Source of the DNA: Thermobifida cellulosilytica TB100
GTDB lineage: Bacteria; Actinomycetota; Actinomycetes; Streptosporangiales; Streptosporangiaceae
Length of the DNA stretch: 42,431 nucleotides
Assembly (NCBI RefSeq): GCF_001517975.1
Contig: NZ_KQ950182.1
Span: 301,453-343,883, forward strand
Direction: 5' to 3'
Shown here: piece after piece, positions 10,118-30,007 of the stretch
Position numbering within the stretch: position 1 is the stretch's first letter
How the letters are laid out: each line of letters begins with the position of its first letter
Translations under genes and position numbers: made by a program
Notes under the pieces: model-generated
What the model was told of the DNA's origin: nothing
The model's input: the letters and a program-made list of their open reading frames with translations, nothing else
The model's database searches: none

Positions 10118-10995
10118 GTTGCGTCCTTCGGATCGTCCTGGGACAGGGGTCGTCCGTGGAAGACGGGGCCGAGAACGGTGCGGGACGCAGGGTTCTCGCC
10201 CCCGGCAGGCCGGAGACCGAGAATTCGGCGGGATGGCTCGCGTTTTTCGTCCGAAGAATAGCGACGTTGTCCTAGGGGCAAAGAGTTTGTCGGATTTCCG
10301 GACCGACCGGAGTGCCGGGGCGAGGGGGTGTGCGGCACCTTTCCGGACGGGTCCGAACCCGTGTGAACTGGTGAACCGATGGGCTCGGGCGGTCCGGGGA
10401 GCCCCGGAAGATCGAGGGACATTTCATCTGATTTCGGTCTGACCGAAACTGAGAAACCCTCCGCGTGACCACGGTGGGCGCACGGCGGACACGCTCGGTG
10501 ACGGACCGAATCTCCTTCGGGTGGGGCGGGGGTGGGCGAACGCGTCTGCCGCGTATCACGAATCCGTGCAGAATGATGCGGAATCCGAGACGAAAACCCT
10601 TTTGGGCTACTGATTCGGTTGCGTTGTGAGATTTCGTAATCGGTAACCGTTTTGAATTCGCCGAAAAAATCCCGGGGCCCGTGATCCGTGCCGGGGCGTC
10701 GGAATCCCCGGCACGGCGGCTCCCGCGGCACCCCGGGTCCCAGCAGCGCGGACGCCGCACGCCCGCGGCCCCGGCGCTGCGGCCTCTCCCGTGGTGTATC
10801 GCCCGTGTATTCCGGTTATCGGGTCGCCACCTAGGGTGACGGCAGGCCGATACGGAAAGGGCGGGCGCCCGAAGACCTCCCCCCTCCCGGGCGCCCGGAC
10901 CAGGCCAGCCCACCGCGGGCACGGAACGGGGTCGGGCGTACCTTCCCCACACCCCGGCACCGCGCTTCCGTGCCCGCAGACGAGAGGAGACCAAC
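10118..10995. other. Long gene-free region upstream of the peptide cluster
   Basis: About 880 bases without a credible gene; the open frames here lack ribosome sites and are Pro/Arg/Ser-rich. It has locally AT-rich parts around 10225-10290 and 10600-10670, a symmetric element at 10432-10448, and two GGGCGCCC palindromes at about 10863-10870 and 10889-10896 that can pair. It probably carries the promoters of the leftward lipoprotein gene and the rightward peptide gene. The ribosome site AGAGGAGA at 10983-10990 serves the peptide gene. Confidence 0.6.
10432..10448. promoter_or_regulatory. 17-bp inverted repeat, operator candidate
   Basis: TTTCGGTCTGACCGAAA has 7-base arms around CTG. It lies in the gene-free region about 550 bases before the peptide gene and 315 bases before the lipoprotein start. 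The bound protein is unknown. Confidence 0.4.
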
Positions 10996-11178
10996 ATGTT
11001 CGAGCGTTTCGGTGAGCTGGGCGACCGGCTGCTGTCGCTGGTCGTGCCCAAGGCCAAGGCGTCGGCCGTCATCTGCTGGTACGAGTACGCCTCGATCAGC
11101 AGCCCGTGCATCCGCCGGTACTGCTGCACCGGCAGCGGCGTCCCCGACGGCTACTGCACCCCCTACCGCCCCTGCTGA
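10996..11178 (+). CDS. Cysteine-rich secreted peptide precursor with knottin-like Cys order
   Basis: The 60-residue precursor has an ATG start and an AGAGGAGA site. Residues 1-24 form a leader: an amphipathic helix (FERFGELGDRLLSLVV) then PKAKASA, ending in an Ala-x-Ala signal-peptidase site. The predicted core, Val25-Cys60, has 36 residues and six Cys at 27, 38, 43, 44, 54 and 60: C-x10-C-x4-CC-x9-C-x5-C. That C-C-CC-C-C order is the one found in inhibitor-cystine-knot toxins. Downstream genes encode two disulfide-type proteins, an ABC exporter and an S26 peptidase, which fit oxidation, export and leader removal. Classing it as a disulfide-rich bacteriocin or signal is inference. Confidence 0.85.
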   Translation: MFERFGELGDRLLSLVVPKAKASAVICWYEYASISSPCIRRYCCTGSGVPDGYCTPYRPC

Positions 11179-11186
11179 TCCCCTGA

Positions 11187-11225
11187 CCGGCTGCGGCGGG
11201 GCCTGCGCGGCTCCGCCGCAGCCGG
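11187..11225 (+). terminator. Attenuator-like hairpin after the peptide gene
   Basis: A perfect 13-bp stem (CCGGCTGCGGCGG and its complement) with a 13-base loop begins 8 bases after the precursor stop. With no T-run and four further genes in the same direction, it may work as a partial terminator or mRNA stabiliser that keeps precursor levels above those of the enzymes. Confidence 0.65.
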
Positions 11226-11292
11226 CCCCACCGCAGAACAGAGGACCCAGCCGTCCTCCCCGTCACCTCCCCAGACCCACGAAAGGTTCCCC

Positions 11293-11367
11293 ATGCTCCA
11301 GCGCTGCGGTGCGCCGGACGACCGACCGCCGACCCAGCCCGGAGTACGGGCGACCGCCCGCCGCTGA
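11293..11367 (+). CDS. Possible 24-residue mini-gene between precursor and MauE gene
   Basis: An ATG with GAAAGG 7 bases upstream opens a 24-codon frame (begins MLQRCGAPDD, one Cys, ends TARR) closing at TGA 11365-11367, 21 bases before the MauE-like gene. It lies between the hairpin and the enzyme genes, so it could be a translated leader or simply untranslated spacer. Support is only the start signal and position. Confidence 0.25.
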   Translation: MLQRCGAPDDRPPTQPGVRATARR

Positions 11368-11388
11368 CCGGACCGGGAGCCCTCGACG

Positions 11389-11967
11389 ATGGTGTACGCC
11401 CTCATCGCCTGCCGCGTCCTGCTCGCCGTCGTGTTCGCCGTCTCCGCGTTCGGCAAACTGCGCAGCAGACGGGCCTTCGAGGAGTTCACCTCCGCCGCGC
11501 GGCAGCTCGCCCCCGGGTGGCTGATCAGGCCGCTCCAGGGCTCCGGCGCCACCACCGGCGCCCACCGGCTCGCCGCCGTGGTCGTCGGCTGCGAGGTCGC
11601 GATACCGCCGCTGCTGCTCGCGCCCCGGACCGCCGCCGTCGGGTTCGCGCTCGCCGCGGCCCTGCTCGCCGCCTTCACCGCCGCCATCGTCGCGGTGCTG
11701 CGCCGCGGCGACCGCGTCGCCTGCCACTGCTTCGGCGCCACCGACCAGGCGCTGCGTCCCGCGCACGTCGTCCGCAACCTGCTGCTGCTGACCGCGGCAG
11801 CCACCGGACTCGTGCTGGCCCTGGCCGCCCCCTCCGCCCAGCCCGCCCTGGTCGGCGCGGTGGCGGCCGTCGGCACGGCCGGGATCCTCGCGCTGCCCGT
11901 CCTGCTCTTCGACGACCTGCTCGACCTGTTCACACCCACGATCCCGAGGAGGCCGACCGCCCCGTGA
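11389..11967 (+). CDS. MauE-like membrane disulfide-formation protein
   Basis: The 192-residue protein has an N-terminal LIACRVLLAVVFAVSAFGKL segment typical of MauE/DoxX-like proteins, about four to five membrane helices, and a VACHCFGATDQ motif with two Cys flanking His. MauE is needed, with MauD, for the disulfide-rich small subunit of methylamine dehydrogenase and is thought to act like DsbB/VKOR. No amine dehydrogenase gene is present; the six-Cys peptide is the obvious client. The ATG start has GGGAGC 8 bases upstream. Its stop overlaps the next start (GTGA), so MauE and the redoxin are coupled. Confidence 0.88.
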   Translation: MVYALIACRVLLAVVFAVSAFGKLRSRRAFEEFTSAARQLAPGWLIRPLQGSGATTGAHRLAAVVVGCEVAIPPLLLAPRTAAVGFALAAALLAAFTAAIVAVLRRGDRVACHCFGATDQALRPAHVVRNLLLLTAAATGLVLALAAPSAQPALVGAVAAVGTAGILALPVLLFDDLLDLFTPTIPRRPTAP

Positions 11968-12512
11968 ACGCCCTGCTGACCGTCGCCGTCATCCTGGTCG
12001 GCGCGCTGTGCGTCCTGAACCTCACCCTCACCGTGGGGGTGATCCGCCGCCTGCGGGAGCACACCGAACTCATCCAGAACGCGGTCCGGATCGGCCCGCC
12101 CGAGCAGATCATGCTCCCCGCGGGGGAGACGGTGGGGCCGTTCTCCGCCGTGACCGAGGAGGGAGTCGAGGTCAGCCGCGACACCCTGGCCGACGAGACG
12201 CTCGTGGGGGTCTTCTCCCCGACCTGCTCGGCCTGCGCCGAACAGCTCCCGCTCTTCGTGGACCGGGCCCGCTCCTTCCCCGGGGGCCGGGACAACGTGC
12301 TGGCCGTGGTCGTGGGCAGCCGGGAGGAGGCCGCCGAACAGCTCGCCCGGCTCGCCCCGGTCGCCCGGGTGGCGGTCGAGGACCACGGCGGCCCCGTCGC
12401 CCAGGCCCTCGGAGTCAAGGGCTTCCCCGCGTTCGCCCGCCTGGCCGCCGACGGCAAGGTGCTCGCCAGCGGGTACCAGACGAGCGACCTGGGCGTGCCC
12501 GTTGCGGGCTGA
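11964..12512 (+). CDS. MauD/TlpA-like membrane-anchored thioredoxin-fold protein
   Basis: The 182-residue protein has one N-terminal membrane anchor (LLTVAVILVGALCVLNLTLT), then a thioredoxin-like domain with FSPTCSACAEQLPLF. The redox pair is Cys88-Ser-Ala-Cys91. A cis-Pro region, VKGFPAFARLA, follows near residue 150. This matches MauD/TlpA-type redoxins facing outside the membrane. Directly behind MauE with a GTGA overlap and a GAGGAGG site, it completes a dedicated disulfide-exchange pair. It probably oxidises or isomerises the peptide made at 10996. A reducing role on another protein cannot be excluded. Confidence 0.9.
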   Translation: MNALLTVAVILVGALCVLNLTLTVGVIRRLREHTELIQNAVRIGPPEQIMLPAGETVGPFSAVTEEGVEVSRDTLADETLVGVFSPTCSACAEQLPLFVDRARSFPGGRDNVLAVVVGSREEAAEQLARLAPVARVAVEDHGGPVAQALGVKGFPAFARLAADGKVLASGYQTSDLGVPVAG

Positions 12513-14376
12513 TCCGACCGCCGCGGTCACCGGAGGAGTCAGAACCACTCTGAGGGGGGTGGCCGCGGCCCTCGTCCTCGCCTGGCGCGCGGGCTGGTAC
12601 CTGCTGCTCGGCCTCGCGGCGACCACCCTGCTCCAGGCGGTCGCCCCGGTGACGGCCACCTGGCTGACCAAGCTGGTGCTCGACGAGATCGCAGCCCCCG
12701 GCTCCGACACGGGCGGACTGCTCCTGCTCGGCGGCGGCCTCGCCCTGGCCGGGGCCGCCACCCTCCTGCTCCCGGCCGCGGCCCAGTACCTCAACTCCGA
12801 GATCCAGCGCCGGGTCGGCCTGCTCTCCCAGGACGAGCTGTTCGCTGCCGTCGAGCGCTTCGTCGGCCTCGCCCGGTTCGAGAACCCCGCCTTCCTCGAC
12901 CGGCTGCGCCTGGCCCAGCAGTCCGGCGGCCAGACCCCCGCCATGGTGGTGGCCGGGGTCTTCACCCTGGGCAGCGGCACCGTGACCGTCCTCGGCTACC
13001 TCGGCTCCCTCGTGGTGGTCAGCCCGTGGATGGCCCTGGCCGTGCTGCTGTCCGCGGTGCCCGTGCTCATCGCCGAGCTCCGGCTCTCCCGCAGGCGCGC
13101 CGCCCTGATGTGGCGGATCGGCCCGGTGGAGCGCCGCGAGATCTTCTTCCGCGAGCTGCTCGCCGACGTCCGCGCGGCCAAGGAGCTGCGGCTGTTCGGC
13201 ATCTCCGCCTACCTGCGGGAGCGGATGACCCGGGAGCGGCGCACCGCCAACGCCGAACACCGCCGGATGGACCGGCGGCAACTGGCCGTGCAGAGCGGCC
13301 TGGGGCTGTTCTCCGCCGCGGTGGCGGGGGCCGGACTGGTGTGGGTGGTGCTCGCCGCCGCCGAGGGGCGACTGACGGTCGGCGACATCTCGCTGTTCGT
13401 GGGGGCGGTCACCGGGGTGCAGAGCGCCCTGGTGCAGCTCGTCCGCGAGGTCAGCCTGGCCCACCAGCAGCTTCTCATGTTCGACCACTACCTCCAGGTC
13501 GTCGGCAGCGAGCCGGACCTGCCGGTGGCGGCCCGGCCGCGGCCGGTGCCCCCGCTGCGCCGCGGCATCGAGTTCCGCGACGTGTGGTTCCGCTACTCGC
13601 CGGAGCACCCGTGGACGCTGCGCGGGGTCGACCTGGTCATCCCGCACGGCCGGTCGGTGGCCCTGGTCGGCCGCAACGGCGCGGGCAAGAGCACGCTGGT
13701 GAAGCTGCTGTGCCGGATGTACGACCCGGAGCGCGGGGCCGTCCTGTGGGACGGCGTGGACCTGCGCGAGATGGACCCCGCGGAGCTGCGCCGCCGGATC
13801 GGCGCGGTGTTCCAGGACTACATGGAGTACGACCTGACCGCCAGGGAGAACATCGGCCTGGGCGACGTGGCGCGGCTGCGCGCCGGCGACGACGCGGCCG
13901 TCCGCGCCGCCGCCGAACGGGCCGGGGCGCACGCGATCGTGGCCGGGCTGCCCCGCGGCTACGACACCCTGCTGACCCGGATGTTCTTCGACGGCGACCA
14001 GGACGCGGAGAGCGGGGTGCCGCTCTCCGGCGGGCAGTGGCAGCGTGTCGCGCTGGCCCGCGCCTACCTGCGCGGCGAGCGCGACCTGCTGATCCTGGAC
14101 GAGCCCAGCTCGGGGCTGGACGCCGAGGCCGAGTACGAGATCCACACCGGCCTGCGCGAGCACCGCAGGGGGCGCACCAGCCTGCTCATCTCCCACCGGC
14201 TGGGCGCGGTGCGCGACGCCGACCGGATCGTGGTGCTGGAGGAGGGCCGGGTGGTGGAGAGCGGCGACCACGCGGAGCTGATGGCCGCCGACGGCGTCTA
14301 CGCCCGCCTGTTCGGCATGCAGGCGCGCGGCTACCAGGAGGCCGCGGCACTGCCGGGCCTGGGAGAGGCTCCGTGA
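12502..14376 (+). CDS. ABC exporter, fused membrane and ATPase domains
   Basis: Up to 624 residues: six membrane helices in the first 330 residues (AWRAGWYLLLGLAATTLL; SLVVVSPWMALAVLLSAVPV) and a C-terminal ATPase with Walker A GRNGAGKST (about 391-399), signature LSGGQWQ (about 509), Walker B LLILDEPSS (about 531) and switch His LLISHRLG. There is no C39 peptidase domain, so leader removal needs another enzyme, here the adjacent S26 peptidase. The start is uncertain: TTG 12502 overlaps the redoxin gene, while GGAGGAG at 12532-12538 would suit CTG 12550. It is the likely peptide exporter. Confidence 0.92.
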   Translation: MRADPTAAVTGGVRTTLRGVAAALVLAWRAGWYLLLGLAATTLLQAVAPVTATWLTKLVLDEIAAPGSDTGGLLLLGGGLALAGAATLLLPAAAQYLNSEIQRRVGLLSQDELFAAVERFVGLARFENPAFLDRLRLAQQSGGQTPAMVVAGVFTLGSGTVTVLGYLGSLVVVSPWMALAVLLSAVPVLIAELRLSRRRAALMWRIGPVERREIFFRELLADVRAAKELRLFGISAYLRERMTRERRTANAEHRRMDRRQLAVQSGLGLFSAAVAGAGLVWVVLAAAEGRLTVGDISLFVGAVTGVQSALVQLVREVSLAHQQLLMFDHYLQVVGSEPDLPVAARPRPVPPLRRGIEFRDVWFRYSPEHPWTLRGVDLVIPHGRSVALVGRNGAGKSTLVKLLCRMYDPERGAVLWDGVDLREMDPAELRRRIGAVFQDYMEYDLTARENIGLGDVARLRAGDDAAVRAAAERAGAHAIVAGLPRGYDTLLTRMFFDGDQDAESGVPLSGGQWQRVALARAYLRGERDLLILDEPSSGLDAEAEYEIHTGLREHRRGRTSLLISHRLGAVRDADRIVVLEEGRVVESGDHAELMAADGVYARLFGMQARGYQEAAALPGLGEAP

Positions 14377-14873
14377 CCGCAGCCGCCGTCACGGCCGCGG
14401 TGGTCCTGGCGGCTGCGGCGGCCGTGACAGGGCTGCGGCGGACCCTGGTCGTGGTGGAGGTCTTCGGGCAGAGCATGGCGCCGACGCTCCGCCAGGGCGA
14501 CCGCGTCCTGGTGCGCAGGCGTGGCCTGGAGCGGCTGCGCTGCGGCGACGTGGTCGTGTTCGCGCCGCCGTACCTGCCGGGCAGGTGGGACCACCCGGGG
14601 GAGGGGCGGCGGACGTCCGAGCGGCGGTGGGTGATCAAGCGGGTCGCCGCACTGCCGGGCGACCCGGTGCCCGCGTCGTGTGCCGCCGCGCCCGGGGTGC
14701 GTCCGGACGCCCCCGTGCCGCCCGGCAGCCTGCTGGTGCTCGGGGACAACCCCGCACACAGCACCGACTCCCGGGCGTGGGGCTACATCCCGGCCGACCG
14801 GATCCTCGGGGTGGTGCTGCGCAGGCTCGGCTCCCGTCCCCCGGCCGTCGACCCGAGCGGGACGAAGGTGTGA
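14373..14873 (+). CDS. S26 signal peptidase I-like protease
   Basis: The 166-residue protein has one N-terminal membrane helix (AAVVLAAAAAVTG) and the S26 boxes: VFGQSMAPTL with catalytic Ser34, RWVIKRVAALPGD with catalytic Lys89, and LLVLGDNPAHSTDSRAWGYI. It starts with a GTG overlapping the ABC gene stop (GTGA) after a GGGAGAGG site, so it belongs to the peptide operon. The precursor has an Ala-x-Ala end at residues 22-24, a suitable cleavage site. It is short for a housekeeping enzyme, consistent with a dedicated peptidase. Its last 91 bases overlap the convergent SARP gene. Confidence 0.92.
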   Translation: MTAAAVTAAVVLAAAAAVTGLRRTLVVVEVFGQSMAPTLRQGDRVLVRRRGLERLRCGDVVVFAPPYLPGRWDHPGEGRRTSERRWVIKRVAALPGDPVPASCAAAPGVRPDAPVPPGSLLVLGDNPAHSTDSRAWGYIPADRILGVVLRRLGSRPPAVDPSGTKV

Positions 14874-16753
14874 TCCGGGCCGCCGCGCTCCCTGAGGGGG
14901 CGCACGCGCCGCAGCAGGCACAGCCTGGTCTCCAGGCTCTCGGACGCCTCGGCCTGTTCCGCCGCGTAGACGCGGAGCAGGCCGGAGAGCCGGTAGCGGT
15001 CGGCGCCGATCGGGTCGATCAGCCGGATGTCGGCCAGGCGGCCCAGCGCGGCGGTCGCGGCGGTGGCGTCGCAGTCCAGCAGCACCGACGCCGTCTCCGC
15101 GCGGAACTCCCCGGCCCGGACCAGGCCGAGCCTGCGGAACAGTGCTGCGGCCCGCCGGTCGGTGGGGTTGTCGCTGTCGCGCAGGGGCAGGTAGTCGGCC
15201 TCGATGCTGGAGCGCACCGAGCGGTCCCCGCAGCGCAGGGTGTCCAGCCGGTGCCGCTCGTCGCACAGCAGCCGGGCGAAGGCGGTCAGCGACCACTCGC
15301 GGCGGGTGAACAGCCGGGTGCCCGCGATCCACAGCGGTAGCGGCTGGTAGTCGCACAGCCGCGCGATCCACTCCGCGGCCTGCGGCTCGGCGCGGACCCG
15401 TTCGGGGCCGCAGCAGGAGGCCAGCAGCTCCACCGCCTCGTCCGGCGGCAGCGGGCCGAGGGCCACGTGCCGCACGCCGTCCAGCGCGCTGCCCCGCACC
15501 CGGCTGGTGATCAGCACCGCGACCTCCGGCCAGGGCGGGAGCAACGGCCGGATCTGCGCCTCGTCCACGGCGTTGTCCAGCACGACCAGCAGGCGGCGGC
15601 CTTCGGTGAGCTCCCGGAACCGGTAGGCGCGCTCCTCGGCGTCGGCGGAGATCTCGTCGGTGGCCATGCCGAGTCCGCGCAGCAGACGGCCCAGGGCGTC
15701 GGCGGGGCTGCGCGGGCTGCCGCCGGTGCCGCCGCCGAGGTCGATGTAGAGCTGCCCGTCCGGGTAGTGCTCGGCGAGCGCGGCGGCGGCCTTGAGGGCC
15801 AGGGCCGACTTGCCGCTGCCGCCGGGGCCGTGGACGGCGACGACGCGGGGGCGTGTGCCGGGGACGGCGCAGGGGCGCAGCGCCTCTTCCAGAAGGTGCA
15901 GTTCGGCGACCCTGCCGACGAACCTGGCGGGTTCGGCCGGGAGCATCCGGGGGGCGGTGCGGCCTGCCGGGAGCCGGGCGCTCTGCGGCCAGGACTCCAG
16001 CAGGCGGGGGTCCCGGTTCAGGATGTCGCGCTGCAACCGGACCAGTTCGGCGCCGGGTTCGATGCCGAGGTGCTCGCGCAGGGCGCGGCGGGCGGCCTGG
16101 TAGGTCTCCAGGGCCGCGGCCGGGGAGCCGGCGCGGTACAGCGCCAGCATCAGCAGGCCCCACATGCTCTCCCGTACGGGGCTCTCGGCCACCAGGCGGC
16201 GCAGGTCGCCGATGAGGTCGGCGTCGCAGCCGAGCATGAGGCGGGCGCGCATGAGGTCCTCGACGGCGCTGTAGCGCTGCTCGTCGAGGGCTTCCAGGCG
16301 GGGGGCGAGTTCCGGGGTGCGGGGGATCTCTTCGGCGGCGGAGCCCCGCCACAGCGCCAGGCCCGCGGTCAGCGCGGCCTCGGCCGTCGCGGCGTCGCCG
16401 TTGCGGAGGGCCTCGCGGCCGCGCCGCTGCTGCTCGGTGAAGGCGTGGGTGTCGAGTTCCTCGGGGGCGACGCGGATCAGGTAGCCGGGGCGGCGGGCGA
16501 CGATGCGTTCCGGGCCGGGGAAGCAGTGCAGGCGCTTGCGGAGCCGGTTCACATAGGTGCGCAGGTTGGCCGTTGCGGAGGGGGGCGGAGTGTCGTCCCA
16601 CAGGGCGGAGGCCAGGCGGTCGAGGGGAACCACCCGGTTGGGCTGGAGGAGGAGGGCGGTCAGCAGGGTGCGTTGTTTGAGGGGGCCGATGCAGATCTCG
16701 GCCCCGTCGTGGAGAACCTGTGTCGGACCGAGGAGACCGAATTCCAGTCCCAT
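14783..16753 (-). CDS. SARP/AfsR-type transcriptional regulator with NTPase domain
   Basis: The 656-residue protein begins with an OmpR-type DNA-binding domain (FGLLGPTQVLHDG; TANLRTYVNRLRKRL; GYLIRV), then a bacterial transcriptional activation domain at about residues 100-245 (AALETYQAARRALREHLGIEPG), then an NB-ARC ATPase with P-loop VVAVHGPGGSGKSAL and LLVVLDNA. It ends without the TPR tail of full AfsR. SARPs activate neighbouring secondary-metabolite genes, so it likely controls the peptide operon it faces. A perfect CelR operator lies 102 bases upstream of its ATG, implying repression that cellobiose relieves. The ribosome site is GGAAAGG. Confidence 0.93.
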   Translation of the reverse strand: MGLEFGLLGPTQVLHDGAEICIGPLKQRTLLTALLLQPNRVVPLDRLASALWDDTPPPSATANLRTYVNRLRKRLHCFPGPERIVARRPGYLIRVAPEELDTHAFTEQQRRGREALRNGDAATAEAALTAGLALWRGSAAEEIPRTPELAPRLEALDEQRYSAVEDLMRARLMLGCDADLIGDLRRLVAESPVRESMWGLLMLALYRAGSPAAALETYQAARRALREHLGIEPGAELVRLQRDILNRDPRLLESWPQSARLPAGRTAPRMLPAEPARFVGRVAELHLLEEALRPCAVPGTRPRVVAVHGPGGSGKSALALKAAAALAEHYPDGQLYIDLGGGTGGSPRSPADALGRLLRGLGMATDEISADAEERAYRFRELTEGRRLLVVLDNAVDEAQIRPLLPPWPEVAVLITSRVRGSALDGVRHVALGPLPPDEAVELLASCCGPERVRAEPQAAEWIARLCDYQPLPLWIAGTRLFTRREWSLTAFARLLCDERHRLDTLRCGDRSVRSSIEADYLPLRDSDNPTDRRAAALFRRLGLVRAGEFRAETASVLLDCDATAATAALGRLADIRLIDPIGADRYRLSGLLRVYAAEQAEASESLETRLCLLRRVRPLRERGGPDHTFVPLGSTAGGREPSLRSTTPRIRSAGM

Positions 16754-17072: not shown

Positions 17073-18347
17073 TCAGTGTCGGCCAGGTCCGTGGCCCGGT
17101 CCGTGGCCGGGACCGTGACCCGGACCCTGGCCGGGCCCCTGGCCGGGACCGTGACCCGGACCGTGGCCAGGTCCGTGGCCAGGTCCGTGGCCCGGACCGT
17201 GGCCGGGACCCGTGTCGCCCCGCGCCTCCTTCAGGGTGGCTTGCAGGGCGTAGAAGGCGGGCTTGGGGACGAAGTCCTCGGTCATGATCGTCGCCGAGCC
17301 CTCACCGGAGAAGAACACCGGAACCCAGGAGTACTTGTCGGTGAAGCCCCAGACCGTGAAGGAGTCGCAGCCCTCCACGGCCAGGCACGCCTCCAGCGCC
17401 TGCTGGTAGTAGTCGGCCTGCTGCTCCAACTGCTCGTCGGTCGGGATGCCGCTCTCCGGGAGGTCCATGCGGACGTCCAGTTCGGTGATGGCCGTGGCCA
17501 GACCGAGCTCGTCGAAGCGCCGCAGGTTCTCCTCCAGGTCGCCGGGGAAGCCGTACCGGGTGCTCAGGTGCCCCTGCGTGGAGAACCCGTGCACCGGGAC
17601 GCCCTGGTCGAGCAGGTCCTGGATGAGCTGGTAGTAGGCGTTGCTCTTGGGGTTGATGCCCTCCACGTTGTAGTCGTTGAAGAACAGCTCCGCCTCGGGG
17701 TCGGCCTCGTGCGCCCAGCGGAAGGCGTCGGCGATGATCTCCGGGCCGAGCTCGCGCAGCCAGATGTTCTCCTGGGTGCGCAGGTTGCCCTGCTCGTCGA
17801 AGATCTCGTTGGCCACGTCCCACTGCTGGATCCGCCCGGCGTAGCGGCCGACGACGGTCGTGATGTGGTCGTGCAGGATCTCGCGCAGCTCCTCCGCGGA
17901 GTAGTCGCCCTCCTCCAGCCAGGCCGGGTTCTGGCTGTGCCACAGCAGCGTGTGCCCCCGCACGACCTGGCCGTTGCGCTCGGCGAAGTCGACGATGGCG
18001 TCGGCGTCCGCGAAGTTGTAGCGGTCCGGCTCGGGGTGGATGAACTCCCACTTCATCTGGTTCTCGGGGGAGACCGAGCTGAACTGCTCCCCGAGGATCT
18101 TCCGGTACTTGTGGTCCGAGGAGAACGGGTCGGGGTAGTCCTGCTCCAGGTGGTGGCCGCCGCCTGCGACGGCGCTGCCGACGAAGAACCCCTCAGGGGC
18201 GGCCCAGCGCAGCTTGTCGGCCTTGGGGCCGGCGTGGGGCGGCGGGGCGTGGTCGTGCCCGGGCTTCGCGACAGCGGGGGCAGCCGCCATCGGGAGGGAC
18301 AGGGCCGCCGCGGCAAGTGCGGCGGTGACAAGACGGACGGGTTTCAT
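17073..18347 (-). CDS. xyl10B: Secreted GH10 endo-1,4-beta-xylanase
   Basis: The 424-residue precursor has a signal peptide (LVTAALAAAALSLPMAAAPAVA), then one GH10 barrel from about residue 55 to 375. WDVANEIF holds the acid/base Glu181 and TELDVRM the nucleophile Glu289; WHSQNPAW and WGFTDKYSW are further GH10 signatures. It has no carbohydrate-binding module; instead it ends in a 45-residue Gly-Pro-Gly-His tail. Size and architecture match T. fusca Xyl10B as I recall it, so the symbol is likely but not proven. Start ATG 18347 has GGGAG 7 bases upstream and leaves the operator at 18383-18396 in the promoter. It hydrolyses xylan outside the cell. Confidence 0.95.
   Translation of the reverse strand: MKPVRLVTAALAAAALSLPMAAAPAVAKPGHDHAPPPHAGPKADKLRWAAPEGFFVGSAVAGGGHHLEQDYPDPFSSDHKYRKILGEQFSSVSPENQMKWEFIHPEPDRYNFADADAIVDFAERNGQVVRGHTLLWHSQNPAWLEEGDYSAEELREILHDHITTVVGRYAGRIQQWDVANEIFDEQGNLRTQENIWLRELGPEIIADAFRWAHEADPEAELFFNDYNVEGINPKSNAYYQLIQDLLDQGVPVHGFSTQGHLSTRYGFPGDLEENLRRFDELGLATAITELDVRMDLPESGIPTDEQLEQQADYYQQALEACLAVEGCDSFTVWGFTDKYSWVPVFFSGEGSATIMTEDFVPKPAFYALQATLKEARGDTGPGHGPGHGPGHGPGHGPGHGPGQGPGQGPGHGPGHGPGHGPGRH
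17076..17210 (-). repeat. Gly-Pro-Gly-His tetrapeptide tail of the xylanase
   Basis: Eleven tetrads, mostly GPGH with two GPGQ and a final GPGR, followed by a last His, are encoded by 12-base tandem DNA repeats. The tail is flexible, has about nine His, and replaces the binding module usual for secreted xylanases. Confidence 0.9.
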
Positions 18348-18382
18348 CCAGGGGCTCCCAGTGGCAGTCGATCGTTGTTCTT

Positions 18383-18396
18383 CCGAAAAATTCCGG
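18383..18396. promoter_or_regulatory. Xylan-regulon operator before the xylanase gene
   Basis: Read with the gene (minus strand) the site is CCGGAA-TT-TTTCGG, an imperfect 6-2-6 inverted repeat beginning 15 bases after the -10 box. It matches the site before the deacetylase gene, including the flanking TGTT. The LacI repressor encoded between the two genes is the likely ligand. Confidence 0.7.
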
Positions 18397-18411
18397 AACA
18401 TGTGACGAAGG

Positions 18412-18441
18412 ACACTAGGTGCCAACCGGGCAGGTCGTCAA
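18412..18441 (-). promoter_or_regulatory. Xylanase promoter
   Basis: On the minus strand TTGACG (18441-18436) and TAGTGT (18417-18412) are 18 bases apart, the same arrangement as the deacetylase promoter at 19897-19926. The operator lies just downstream, where a bound repressor would block initiation. Confidence 0.6.
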
Positions 18442-27946: not shown

Positions 27947-30007
27947 ATGAGCAGACCCGCACCCCTCGGAGCGCCCGGCGAGGCGCGCACCGTTCTCGCG
28001 ATCACGCCGTTCCGGCGGCTGTGGCTCTCGCTGTCCCTCTCCAGCCTCGGTGACTGGCTGAGCCTGCTGGCGCTGGTGTCCCTTGCCGCGATCCTCACCG
28101 AGGGCGAGGAGACGGTGATCCAGTACTTCGCGGTCAGCGGAGTGGTGGTCCTCAAGGTGCTCCCCTCGGTGCTGCTCAGCCCGATCGCGGGGGTGCTGGC
28201 CGATCACGTCGACCGCCGCCTCACCATGGTCGTCAGCGACGTCGTCCGCGGCCTGCTCTACATCTCCATCCCCGTCGTGGGGCGGCTGGACTGGCTGCTC
28301 ATCGCCAACTTCCTGGCCGAGTGCGTGGCGCTGTTCTGGGCGCCCGCCAAGGACGCCACCGTGCCCAACCTGGTGCCCCGGCACCGGCTGGAGCAGGCCA
28401 ACCAGCTCAGCCTGCTCACCACCTACGGCTCGGCGCCGGTCGCCGCGGCGCTGTTCGCGCTGCTGGCCTCCCTCAGCACGGTGCTGGGCGGCTTCTTCCC
28501 CGCGATGCGCACGCCCGAGGCGGACATCGCCCTCTACCTCAACGGCGTCACCTTCTTCATCGCCGCCGCCGTCGTCTGGCGGCTGCCCATCCCCGCCACC
28601 CGCGCCGCCGACGACCCCAAGCGCCCGTCGGTGTTCCGCGCGATCTGGGAGGGGCTGCGGTACGCCGGAACCACCCGGCTGGTGCGGGGCCTGCTGCTGG
28701 GCATGCTGGGCGCCTTCGGCGCGGGCGGCGCGGTCATCGGCGTGGCCCGCATCTACGTGACCCACCTCGGCGCGGGCAACGCCGGGTTCGGCGTGCTGTT
28801 CGGGGCGGTCTTCACCGGCATGGCGGTCGGCATGCTCCTCGGCCCGCGCGTGCTGCGCGACTTCAGCCGCCGCCGCCTGTTCGGCCTGTCCCTGCTGCTG
28901 GCCGGGGTGGCGCTGCTGCTCGTCGGCCTGTCCAGCGACATGGTGCTGTCCGCGGTGCTCACCGCGGTCCTGGGCGTCGGAGCCGGTATCGCCTGGGTGA
29001 TCGGCCTGACCATGCTGGGCCAGGAGGTCGACGACGAGATCCGCGGCCGCACCTTCGCGTTCCTGCACGCCGTGGCCCGCGTGGTGCTGATGGGCTCGGT
29101 CGCCGCGGCCCCGCTGATCGCGGCGACGATGGGGGAGCAGACCTTCGAGGCGGGAGAGCTGACCTACCGGTTCCACGGCTCGGCCGGGGTGCTGCTGATC
29201 GCCGCGGGCCTGCTCATCCTGGTGTCGCTGGTGGCCTACTGGCAGATGAACGAGGGCCACGAGATGTCGCTGCTGGCCGAGCTGAAGGCCGTGCTGGGCG
29301 GCCGGAGCGCCGAGGACGACGCCCCCGAGCGGCCCGGCGGCCTGTTCGTGGTGCTCGAGGGCGGCGAGGGCTCCGGCAAGTCCACCCAGGTCCGCGAGAT
29401 CGCCGTGTGGCTGCGCGAGGAGGGATTCGACGTCCTCACCACCCGCGAGCCGGGAGCCACCAAGCTGGGCATGCGGCTGCGCACGATGCTGCTGGACAAG
29501 GCGCACGCGGGCATGTCGGCCCGCACCGAGGCGCTGCTGTACGCGGCCGACCGCGCCGAGCACGTCGAGACGGTGATCCGGCCCGCGCTGGAGCGGGGCG
29601 CGATCGTGATCAGCGACCGCTACGTCGACTCCACCCTCGCCTACCAGGGCGCCGGGCGGGAACTGGGCGTCGACGAGGTCGCCCGGCTCAACGACTGGGC
29701 CACCGGGCGGCTGGTGCCGGACCTGACCATCCTGCTGGACCTGCCCGCCGAGGAGGGGCTGCGGCGCCACGCCGACCGCCCCGCCGACCGGCTGGAGTCG
29801 GAGACCCTGGAGTTCCACGAGCGGGTCCGCCGCGGCTTCCTGGAACTGGCCGACCGCCACCCCGAGCGCTACCTGGTGCTGGACGCCCGGGAGCCGCAGG
29901 AGGCCGTCACCAAGGCCATCCGGCGGCACCTGCGCAAGATGCTGCCCGACCCGGTGCCCGACGACGCCGAGGCGATCACCGGGATGATCCCGATCATCAA
30001 GGAGTGA
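27947..30007 (+). CDS. tmk: MFS transporter-like/thymidylate kinase fusion
   Basis: The 686-residue protein joins two parts. Residues 1-430 have about twelve membrane helices and MFS-type loops (LADHVDRRLTMVVSDVVRG). After a short linker, residues about 463-670 are a complete dTMP kinase: P-loop FVVLEGGEGSGKSTQ, TTREPGATKLGMRLR, the DRYVDSTLAYQGAGR motif and a Lid region. The fusion is known in several actinobacteria. The kinase makes dTDP for DNA synthesis; what the membrane half moves is unknown, and it may mainly anchor the enzyme. The delta-prime gene follows, as in many genomes. No separate tmk is in the window. Confidence 0.95.
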   Translation: MSRPAPLGAPGEARTVLAITPFRRLWLSLSLSSLGDWLSLLALVSLAAILTEGEETVIQYFAVSGVVVLKVLPSVLLSPIAGVLADHVDRRLTMVVSDVVRGLLYISIPVVGRLDWLLIANFLAECVALFWAPAKDATVPNLVPRHRLEQANQLSLLTTYGSAPVAAALFALLASLSTVLGGFFPAMRTPEADIALYLNGVTFFIAAAVVWRLPIPATRAADDPKRPSVFRAIWEGLRYAGTTRLVRGLLLGMLGAFGAGGAVIGVARIYVTHLGAGNAGFGVLFGAVFTGMAVGMLLGPRVLRDFSRRRLFGLSLLLAGVALLLVGLSSDMVLSAVLTAVLGVGAGIAWVIGLTMLGQEVDDEIRGRTFAFLHAVARVVLMGSVAAAPLIAATMGEQTFEAGELTYRFHGSAGVLLIAAGLLILVSLVAYWQMNEGHEMSLLAELKAVLGGRSAEDDAPERPGGLFVVLEGGEGSGKSTQVREIAVWLREEGFDVLTTREPGATKLGMRLRTMLLDKAHAGMSARTEALLYAADRAEHVETVIRPALERGAIVISDRYVDSTLAYQGAGRELGVDEVARLNDWATGRLVPDLTILLDLPAEEGLRRHADRPADRLESETLEFHERVRRGFLELADRHPERYLVLDAREPQEAVTKAIRRHLRKMLPDPVPDDAEAITGMIPIIKE

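Follow-up and report, generated by a model that had tools for sequence, protein, structure and literature searches.

A candidate module for disulfide-rich, secreted mini-proteins in actinobacteria

The window analysed here is the whole 42,431-nucleotide stretch of Thermobifida cellulosilytica TB100 contig NZ_KQ950182.1 (genome G000; 4.43 Mb, 19 contigs), and at 10996-14873 it carries five co-directional genes which, in our judgement, very probably constitute the biosynthetic machinery for a secreted mini-protein that is rich in disulfides and made on the ribosome. They encode a 60-residue precursor, a MauE-type membrane redox protein, a thioredoxin-fold oxidoreductase that we call MauD, an ATP-binding cassette (ABC) exporter and a short S26 (type I) signal peptidase. 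At the level of sequence, the family to which the precursor belongs combines a conserved leader, which is not Sec-like and ends in Ala-x-Ala (AxA), with a hypervariable core of even cysteine number, a recurrent linkage to ABC, S26, MauE and MauD genes, and retention of the catalytic residues by peptidase and redox pair alike. The original prediction, made from the letters of the window, had proposed a dedicated system for an oxidised, exported and cleaved mini-protein; the conservation of the leader end and of the partners, with active sites kept in nearly all copies, agrees with that proposal.

We picture the route as follows. The ABC exporter would recognise the leader, and the whole precursor would cross the membrane; the membrane-bound S26 peptidase would cut it after residue 24; and MauD, acting through its CxxC motif and recharged via the CxC of MauE, would form or shuffle disulfides outside the cell. 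Export by the ABC protein first, followed by cutting outside the cell, seems to us the natural order of events, and a SARP regulator encoded alongside would switch the operon on. With a ribosomal precursor, a conserved leader, a variable core and maturation genes alongside, the locus has the genes of a ribosomally synthesised and post-translationally modified peptide (RiPP) in the broad sense; RiPP status is assigned by this gene criterion, and modification of the core is predicted. For the product, a specialised metabolite is the most probable identity, perhaps one with an antagonistic role, given that the core has diversified on a constant leader and that the cluster is an accessory insertion. 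The net charge of the cores is mostly mildly basic (positive in 74 of 96 cores thinned as described below).

With less assurance, we favour on balance a broader view, in which the export, cleavage and oxidation module serves an evolving disulfide scaffold and defines a large actinobacterial peptide class. Its CC-containing branch would gain and lose whole cysteine pairs around a constant C1...C3C4...C5, its leader would join an ABC-export signal to a signal-peptidase site, and its members would carry two to six disulfides.

A conserved leader and a hypervariable core

The precursor gene (10996-11178, + strand; GAGGAG upstream at 10984-10989) has a GC content by codon position of 0.52/0.57/0.95, the high value at the third position being as expected of coding DNA in the window's genome. 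The precursor is no chance reading frame: in G002, from the same genus, three homologues of it lie in tandem (80, 75 and 63% identical) and adjoin the same module genes. The leader peptide MFERFGELGDRLLSLVVPKAKASA (residues 1-24; 10996-11067, +), our proposed export signal, has an AxA end of the signal-peptidase type, here Ala-Ser-Ala at residues 22-24. The core, which in translation reads VICWYEYASISSPCIRRYCCTGSGVPDGYCTPYRPC (residues 25-60 plus the stop codon; 11068-11178, +), contains six cysteines spaced C-x10-C-x4-CC-x9-C-x5-C and has a computed monoisotopic mass of 4061.71 after loss of six hydrogens. The position, translation and cysteine spacing of this six-cysteine core, and the AxA leader end, are as originally described, and the leader end is conserved in alignments of both 23 and 32 precursors.

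Across the family the leader consensus is roughly xxDRLLxxxxPxxxAxA. D10, P18, A22 and A24 are invariant in the 23 aligned precursors; among the 32 diverse precursors P18 and A24 are again invariant and A22 is present in at least 90%. Type I signal peptidases favour a helix-breaking proline six residues before the final alanine, and small residues at -3 and -1. The most hydrophobic 11 residues of the window's leader score 1.2 on the Kyte-Doolittle scale, against 2.34 for the Sec-like N-terminus of a xylanase in the same window, and most leaders of the family lack a Sec-like hydrophobic stretch. A recognisable cleavage pattern is present in 242 of 245 precursor rows; given that this pattern, as used to cut out cores for the parity count below, requires alanine at -1, the AxA claim rests on the alignments. 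In a few cases, that of L021 among them, the pattern also trimmed the leader one residue too soon, which inflates serine and threonine at -3. In 1770 pairs, which involve 60 of the 96 thinned precursors, mean identity is 45% in the leader and 16% in the core with its cysteines excluded: a conserved leader is followed by a hypervariable core.

Even cysteine numbers and a pairing map

We counted cysteines in 192 unique cores from precursors matching at E <= 1e-7, and in 96 cores that remained after thinning to less than 50% identity. The number is even in 191 of the 192 unique cores and in all 96 thinned cores (p = 1.3e-29 against an expectation of one half), while 13 other residue types, taken as a control, are even in 42 to 61 of the 96. 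The odd exception, L204, has five cysteines, and the closely related L170 stops short of the additional one. Such parity is difficult to account for without a partner for each cysteine, and argues for full disulfide pairing. Across cores the number ranges from 4 to 12, changing by twos; the highest, 12, is that of L282 from Nonomuraea jiangxiensis, whose score (precursor E 6.5e-5) places it outside the parity count.

The arrangement around the CC is also regular. Among thinned cores with a single CC and cysteines on both sides of it, all six of the four-cysteine cores have one cysteine per side, all 22 six-cysteine cores have two, and 11 of 15 eight-cysteine cores have three. In the other thinned cores the CC is terminal only (three with six cysteines, five with eight), occurs at two or more positions (seven) or is lacking (37). 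A MAFFT alignment of 25 window-like cores retains C1, C3, C4 and C5 in every row, and five four-cysteine rows lack both C2 and C6 and keep the flanking CWxE and CTPWR motifs. That C2 and C6 are lost together and the other four kept suggests that C2 pairs with C6, and these two probably behave as one bond. Extending the comparison to 90 single-CC cores, in which the early and late position classes were chosen after the sequences had been seen, we find a late C2 accompanied by a late C6 in 47 of 47 cases, and a C6' (three residues after C5) accompanied by an early C2' in 16 of 16; two eight-cysteine cores have both pairs, 16 cores have neither, and one is the odd L204. Thus C2'-C6' looks like a second bond, with C2' apparently also able to go with the late C6. 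Applied to the window, this map makes C38-C60 (C2-C6) a likely pair, with C27 and C54 each likely joined to one of C43 and C44. An AlphaFold2 model of the core (mean pLDDT 86.5) predicts a three-stranded sheet, with strands at core residues 2-9, 12-22 and 25-30.

The partner proteins keep their active sites

The MauE-type protein (11389-11967, +) scores 76.2 bits on PF07291 against a Pfam gathering cut-off of 27 (E 3.7e-21), and 127 of 128 distinct relatives in the alignment retain its two cysteines, which form the CxC motif CHC. The gene that follows (11964-12512, +) has a GTG start and encodes an N-terminal membrane anchor and a CSAC motif, of the CxxC type, both cysteines of which are kept in 161 of 161 aligned distinct relatives. 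It scores 30.0 bits on the Redoxin family PF08534 (cut-off 26.6; E 5.4e-7) and falls below the nearest curated thioredoxin-fold model, the DsbE family TIGR00385 (12.7 against 123.15 bits); the label MauD reflects this Redoxin fold and the place of the gene beside MauE rather than a score on a MauD model.

The ABC exporter (12502-14376, +, the TTG start being a mechanical choice) has membrane and ATPase domains (PF00005, E 2.5e-28), and no peptidase family is recognised among its Pfam matches. The S26 peptidase (14373-14873, +; PF10502, E 2.7e-25) scores 84 bits on TIGR02227 against a cut-off of 47 (E 1e-23), and keeps the conserved serine in 154 and the lysine in 156 of 156 aligned distinct relatives, as expected of a Ser/Lys dyad. 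Consecutive genes from MauE to S26 overlap by 4, 11 and 4 nucleotides. These family assignments and overlaps bear out the gene content first read from the window; the gene list given then omitted the convergent SARP/BTAD-NB-ARC regulator (14783-16753, -; PF03704, E 1.3e-41), the 3' end of which overlaps that of the S26 gene. We consider that this regulator probably belongs to the unit as its cluster regulator.

Searching the five module proteins and three neighbours at the window locus, we found no match to lanthipeptide, sactipeptide, lasso or LAP synthetase families, in keeping with the earlier statement that no lanthionine, radical-SAM or lasso enzyme is present.

The module recurs with its precursor

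A precursor profile built from 32 sequences was used with a match threshold of E <= 1e-4. It matches 161 of 341 genomes in the family to which the window belongs, 34 of 297 in a second family, f20 (probably Streptomyces and relatives), and 2 of 396, the window's own included, in an even sample of the phylum; this last figure indicates that the profile is specific. With the single window precursor as query, 10 of 100 relatives' genomes were matched at E <= 0.01, two of them by weak matches only (L009 and L010, E 0.002-0.006), which we do not count as family. The weak matches of a further precursor search were likewise not counted, and G361 (E 2.9e-5) was left out of the loci read. Against the NCBIfam and Pfam families, none of the 32 diverse precursors rises above noise.

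We read 123 loci of this family: the window and 122 from the match lists, mostly top-ranked, a non-random set chosen by precursor score that includes close relatives and in which 80 places came from the best-first match lists of both family profile searches rather than from all matches. All four partners lie near the precursor in 88 of the 123. Taken singly, the ABC gene is near in 117 (114 at E <= 1e-100), MauD in 112, S26 in 112 and MauE in 93; at least one partner is near in 121, or in 119 if two weak partial ABC hits are set aside. Approaching from the other side, a MauD-anchored scan of named genomes gave 77 loci, in Microbispora, Nonomuraea, Nocardiopsis, Microtetraspora, Micromonospora, Dactylosporangium, Amycolatopsis, Streptomyces and others, with a precursor at 72 and all four partners at 49. 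Given that the MauD profile was built from such loci, the scan shows that this type of MauD, not MauD generally, belongs to the system; the two sets of loci also overlap, 30 precursors being shared between the 155 distinct precursors of the precursor-based set and the 74 of the MauD-based set.

At 177 of the 200 loci read, a precursor is accompanied by an ABC relative at E <= 1e-100. Among these 177 the order of the genes shuffles while the set recurs, the commonest order (precursor, MauE, MauD, ABC, S26) accounting for 37; a SARP-like gene is present at 101, and 25 have multiple precursors, with up to seven different precursors in one locus. The array of seven is that of L165, and L171 has four, without a complete module in the stretch read. 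That relatives keep the machinery while the peptide is swapped suggests a large, uncharacterised natural class of peptides.

The redox pair is not distributed evenly with respect to core complexity. Loci with a strong ABC gene and neither MauD nor MauE in the stretch have four-cysteine cores only (5 of 5, against 14 of 138 others; Fisher p = 2.5e-5). A first version of this count gave 5 and 2 against 15 and 126 (p = 4.9e-4), its two eight-cysteine exceptions, L149 and L171, having only partial ABC hits near 1e-10; by admitting only loci with a strong ABC hit, the final count excluded 15, L149 and L171 among them. The pattern fits, without proving, the idea that more complex cores need a dedicated MauD/MauE pair. 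In L150, L156, L164, L167, L172 and L175, the stretch read holds only precursor, ABC and S26 genes, and all six have four-cysteine cores.

An accessory insertion, also found on plasmids

The genes flanking the island in the window, encoding a lipoprotein-like and a xylanase-like protein, are adjacent in the sister genome G003, 0.8-0.9 kb apart, and no match to the module proteins occurs in the 5 kb around that pair, as at an empty site. Each of four genus members searched has two other MauE homologues above the Pfam cut-off; a third, of the cluster type, is confined to G000 and G002, which are also the two genomes in which the precursor was matched, searches of G001 and G003 having given none. 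The gene cluster is an accessory module.

MauD relatives also occur on 28 plasmid records, of which we read three loci, from Streptomyces sp. NBC_00376, S. clavuligerus and S. atratus. All three loci contain a family-like precursor that the records call a hypothetical protein, and MauE is annotated in the latter two. On the large S. clavuligerus plasmid pF1D18A (L302) two tandem precursors adjoin the module, in a well-studied organism.

Two further features of the region are recorded here. The window's xylanase-like protein (17073-18425, -) has a long C-terminal tail of Gly-Pro-Gly-His / Gly-Pro-Gly-Gln repeats, and its match in G003, adjoining the lipoprotein-like gene at the empty site, has two internal TGA codons. 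At 27947-30007 (+), a Major Facilitator transporter (PF07690/PF05977) and a thymidylate kinase (PF02223) are joined in a single 686-residue frame.

Alternative explanations

The cysteine order of the window core, C-C-CC-C-C, is common to 49 of the 192 unique cores and is that expected of a true knottin, in which an inhibitor cystine knot is formed by C1-C4, C2-C5 and C3-C6. We regard this fold as improbable. The other 143 cores have a different cysteine pattern; and with C1, C3, C4 and C5 invariant in the 25 aligned cores, five of which do without C2 and C6, and late C2 always found with late C6, knot pairing would strand C3 and C5 without partners whenever C2 and C6 go. The term knottin-like, applied to the peptide at the outset, is accordingly not supported: the connectivity, judged indirectly from co-loss, does not fit, since C5 survives when C2 and C6 go together; the cysteine number ranges from 4 to 12; and a three-stranded sheet is modelled. 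Redoxin folds can also reduce, and the core might instead be a metal-binding peptide whose thiols are held reduced by MauD and MauE until metal is loaded, its even cysteines being metal sites. Parity by itself cannot separate metal from disulfide; yet a cysteine number that runs from 4 to 12 by twos, and the lack of a metal carrier among the window module's proteins (the other loci not being annotated for one), make us consider this explanation very improbable. Scarcely any credence attaches to an extra, unrecognised modification, such as lanthionine, installed by an enzyme in trans. Serine and threonine are present in the cores, but their counts show no parity (47 of 96 each), and no lanthionine synthetase, radical SAM or YcaO protein is found among the window's module proteins or in the annotation of the three plasmid loci, other loci not having been systematically annotated.

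A different kind of alternative leaves the maturation route unchanged and casts the secreted peptide as a signal or a factor in development instead of an antagonist. The frequent SARP-like regulator would suit this, as would the fact that no immunity gene was recognised among the window genes scanned, which did not include a systematic search for one. We think it unlikely, though deserving of serious consideration, given that so large a gap in identity between core and leader would be unusual for a signal without a co-diversifying receptor, and that a single locus may hold up to seven different precursors.

Our preferred reading, a module for disulfide-rich secreted mini-proteins, has its own difficulties, which we collect here. 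MauE was not seen at 30 and MauD at 11 of the 123 loci (some of the stretches fetched are incomplete), so that a redox pair nearby is not strictly needed, and in the stretches read for the precursor loci L020 and L159 all four partners are missing. Conversely, 5 of the 77 MauD loci are without a precursor; three of these, L251, L280 and L291, have complete MauE-MauD-ABC-S26 modules, perhaps serving a different substrate family. Even cysteine counts would fit some metal sites too, and MauD and MauE, whose oxidative role here is a presumption, might isomerise or reduce instead. As for the pairing map, 12 single-CC cores combine an early C2' with a late C6 and have no C6', so that the link from C6' to C2' does not hold in reverse. 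On a tree of the ABC proteins, the joint change of C2 and C6 rests on two independent transitions, both concordant; of six concerning the step from six to eight cysteines, four are concordant, none discordant and two without change. The tree support for pairwise change is consistent, but not large. On the same tree the link between absence of MauD/MauE and four-cysteine cores is not phylogenetically independent (five state changes; in a test of three pairs the cysteine state differs in none or one), and we therefore keep that link only as a hint.

Comparison with known systems

It had been stated that no described actinobacterial system of this make-up was known, which needs qualifying. The decRiPPter study (PMC7794033) already names three candidate RiPP families with mauE, one of them also with mauD, in Streptomyces sp. 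2112.3, S. viridosporus T7A and Streptomyces sp. CS081A. Those families resemble ours in having a small, cysteine-rich precursor (at least 8 cysteines) beside mauE, in clusters filtered for a transporter, a peptidase and a regulator, and their authors propose a role in precursor modification, naming the disulfide formation speculated for MauE in the beta-subunit of methylamine dehydrogenase (PMC7794033). In the text consulted they are candidates only, without a leader rule, an S26/AxA link, cysteine pairing or a product; our comparison is by description, and identity with the window's family is unproven (PMC7794033).

Going by titles and abstracts, and with bioRxiv and the majority of subscription journals outside the coverage, no paper among the matches listed in our literature search characterises such a system and only PMC7794033 bears on MauE-containing peptide clusters; PMC13192320, returned for the string 'maue', was rejected, the string being part of an author name. 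This analysis adds the breadth of the family, the AxA/S26 link, the cysteine parity and the pair map. If the broader view given above is correct, the toxin superfamilies of animals and the defensins of plants would have a bacterial counterpart here, equipped with its own machinery for oxidative folding. The family points to a large store of disulfide-rich mini-proteins in actinobacteria already in culture, with precursors outside Pfam and NCBIfam families (32 tested). It offers a testable role for MauE and MauD beyond methylamine metabolism, a possible export route in which an ABC exporter lacking a peptidase is coupled to a signal peptidase of its own, and a natural experiment in how a scaffold acquires disulfides. 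The module could become a tool for producing disulfide-rich peptides, and its copy on the S. clavuligerus plasmid is a convenient place to seek the product.

The actifensins and actinodefensins are similar in being actinobacterial ribosomal peptides, of 37 residues with six cysteines, a mass fitting three disulfides and a leader that is removed, encoded in tandem diversified copies with ABC transporter genes (PMC6989792). They differ in a leader ending in GA plus one E, a subtilisin-like protease and a LuxR regulator; the gene list consulted names no MauE, MauD or S26 peptidase, but includes genes of unknown function (PMC6989792). The distinction is one of description: our 32 precursors have no Pfam or NCBIfam match above noise, in libraries that may lack an actinodefensin model. 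The mau cluster of methylamine utilisation likewise has a MauE/MauD pair serving a disulfide-rich substrate (as cited in PMC7794033). That substrate is an enzyme subunit, of which there is none among the five window genes. Sublancin and the BdbA-BdbB systems are RiPP clusters with their own thiol-disulfide oxidoreductases, and employ a peptidase-domain ABC exporter, a double-glycine leader and a glycosyltransferase, all three of which are absent from the window module. Finally, the S26 peptidase of the window resembles the nickel superoxide dismutase (SOD) maturation protease, which is also a short S26-type enzyme named for maturing one small protein; the window enzyme falls below that model (TIGR02754; 50.1 against a cut-off of 63.25 bits), and the substrates of the two differ.

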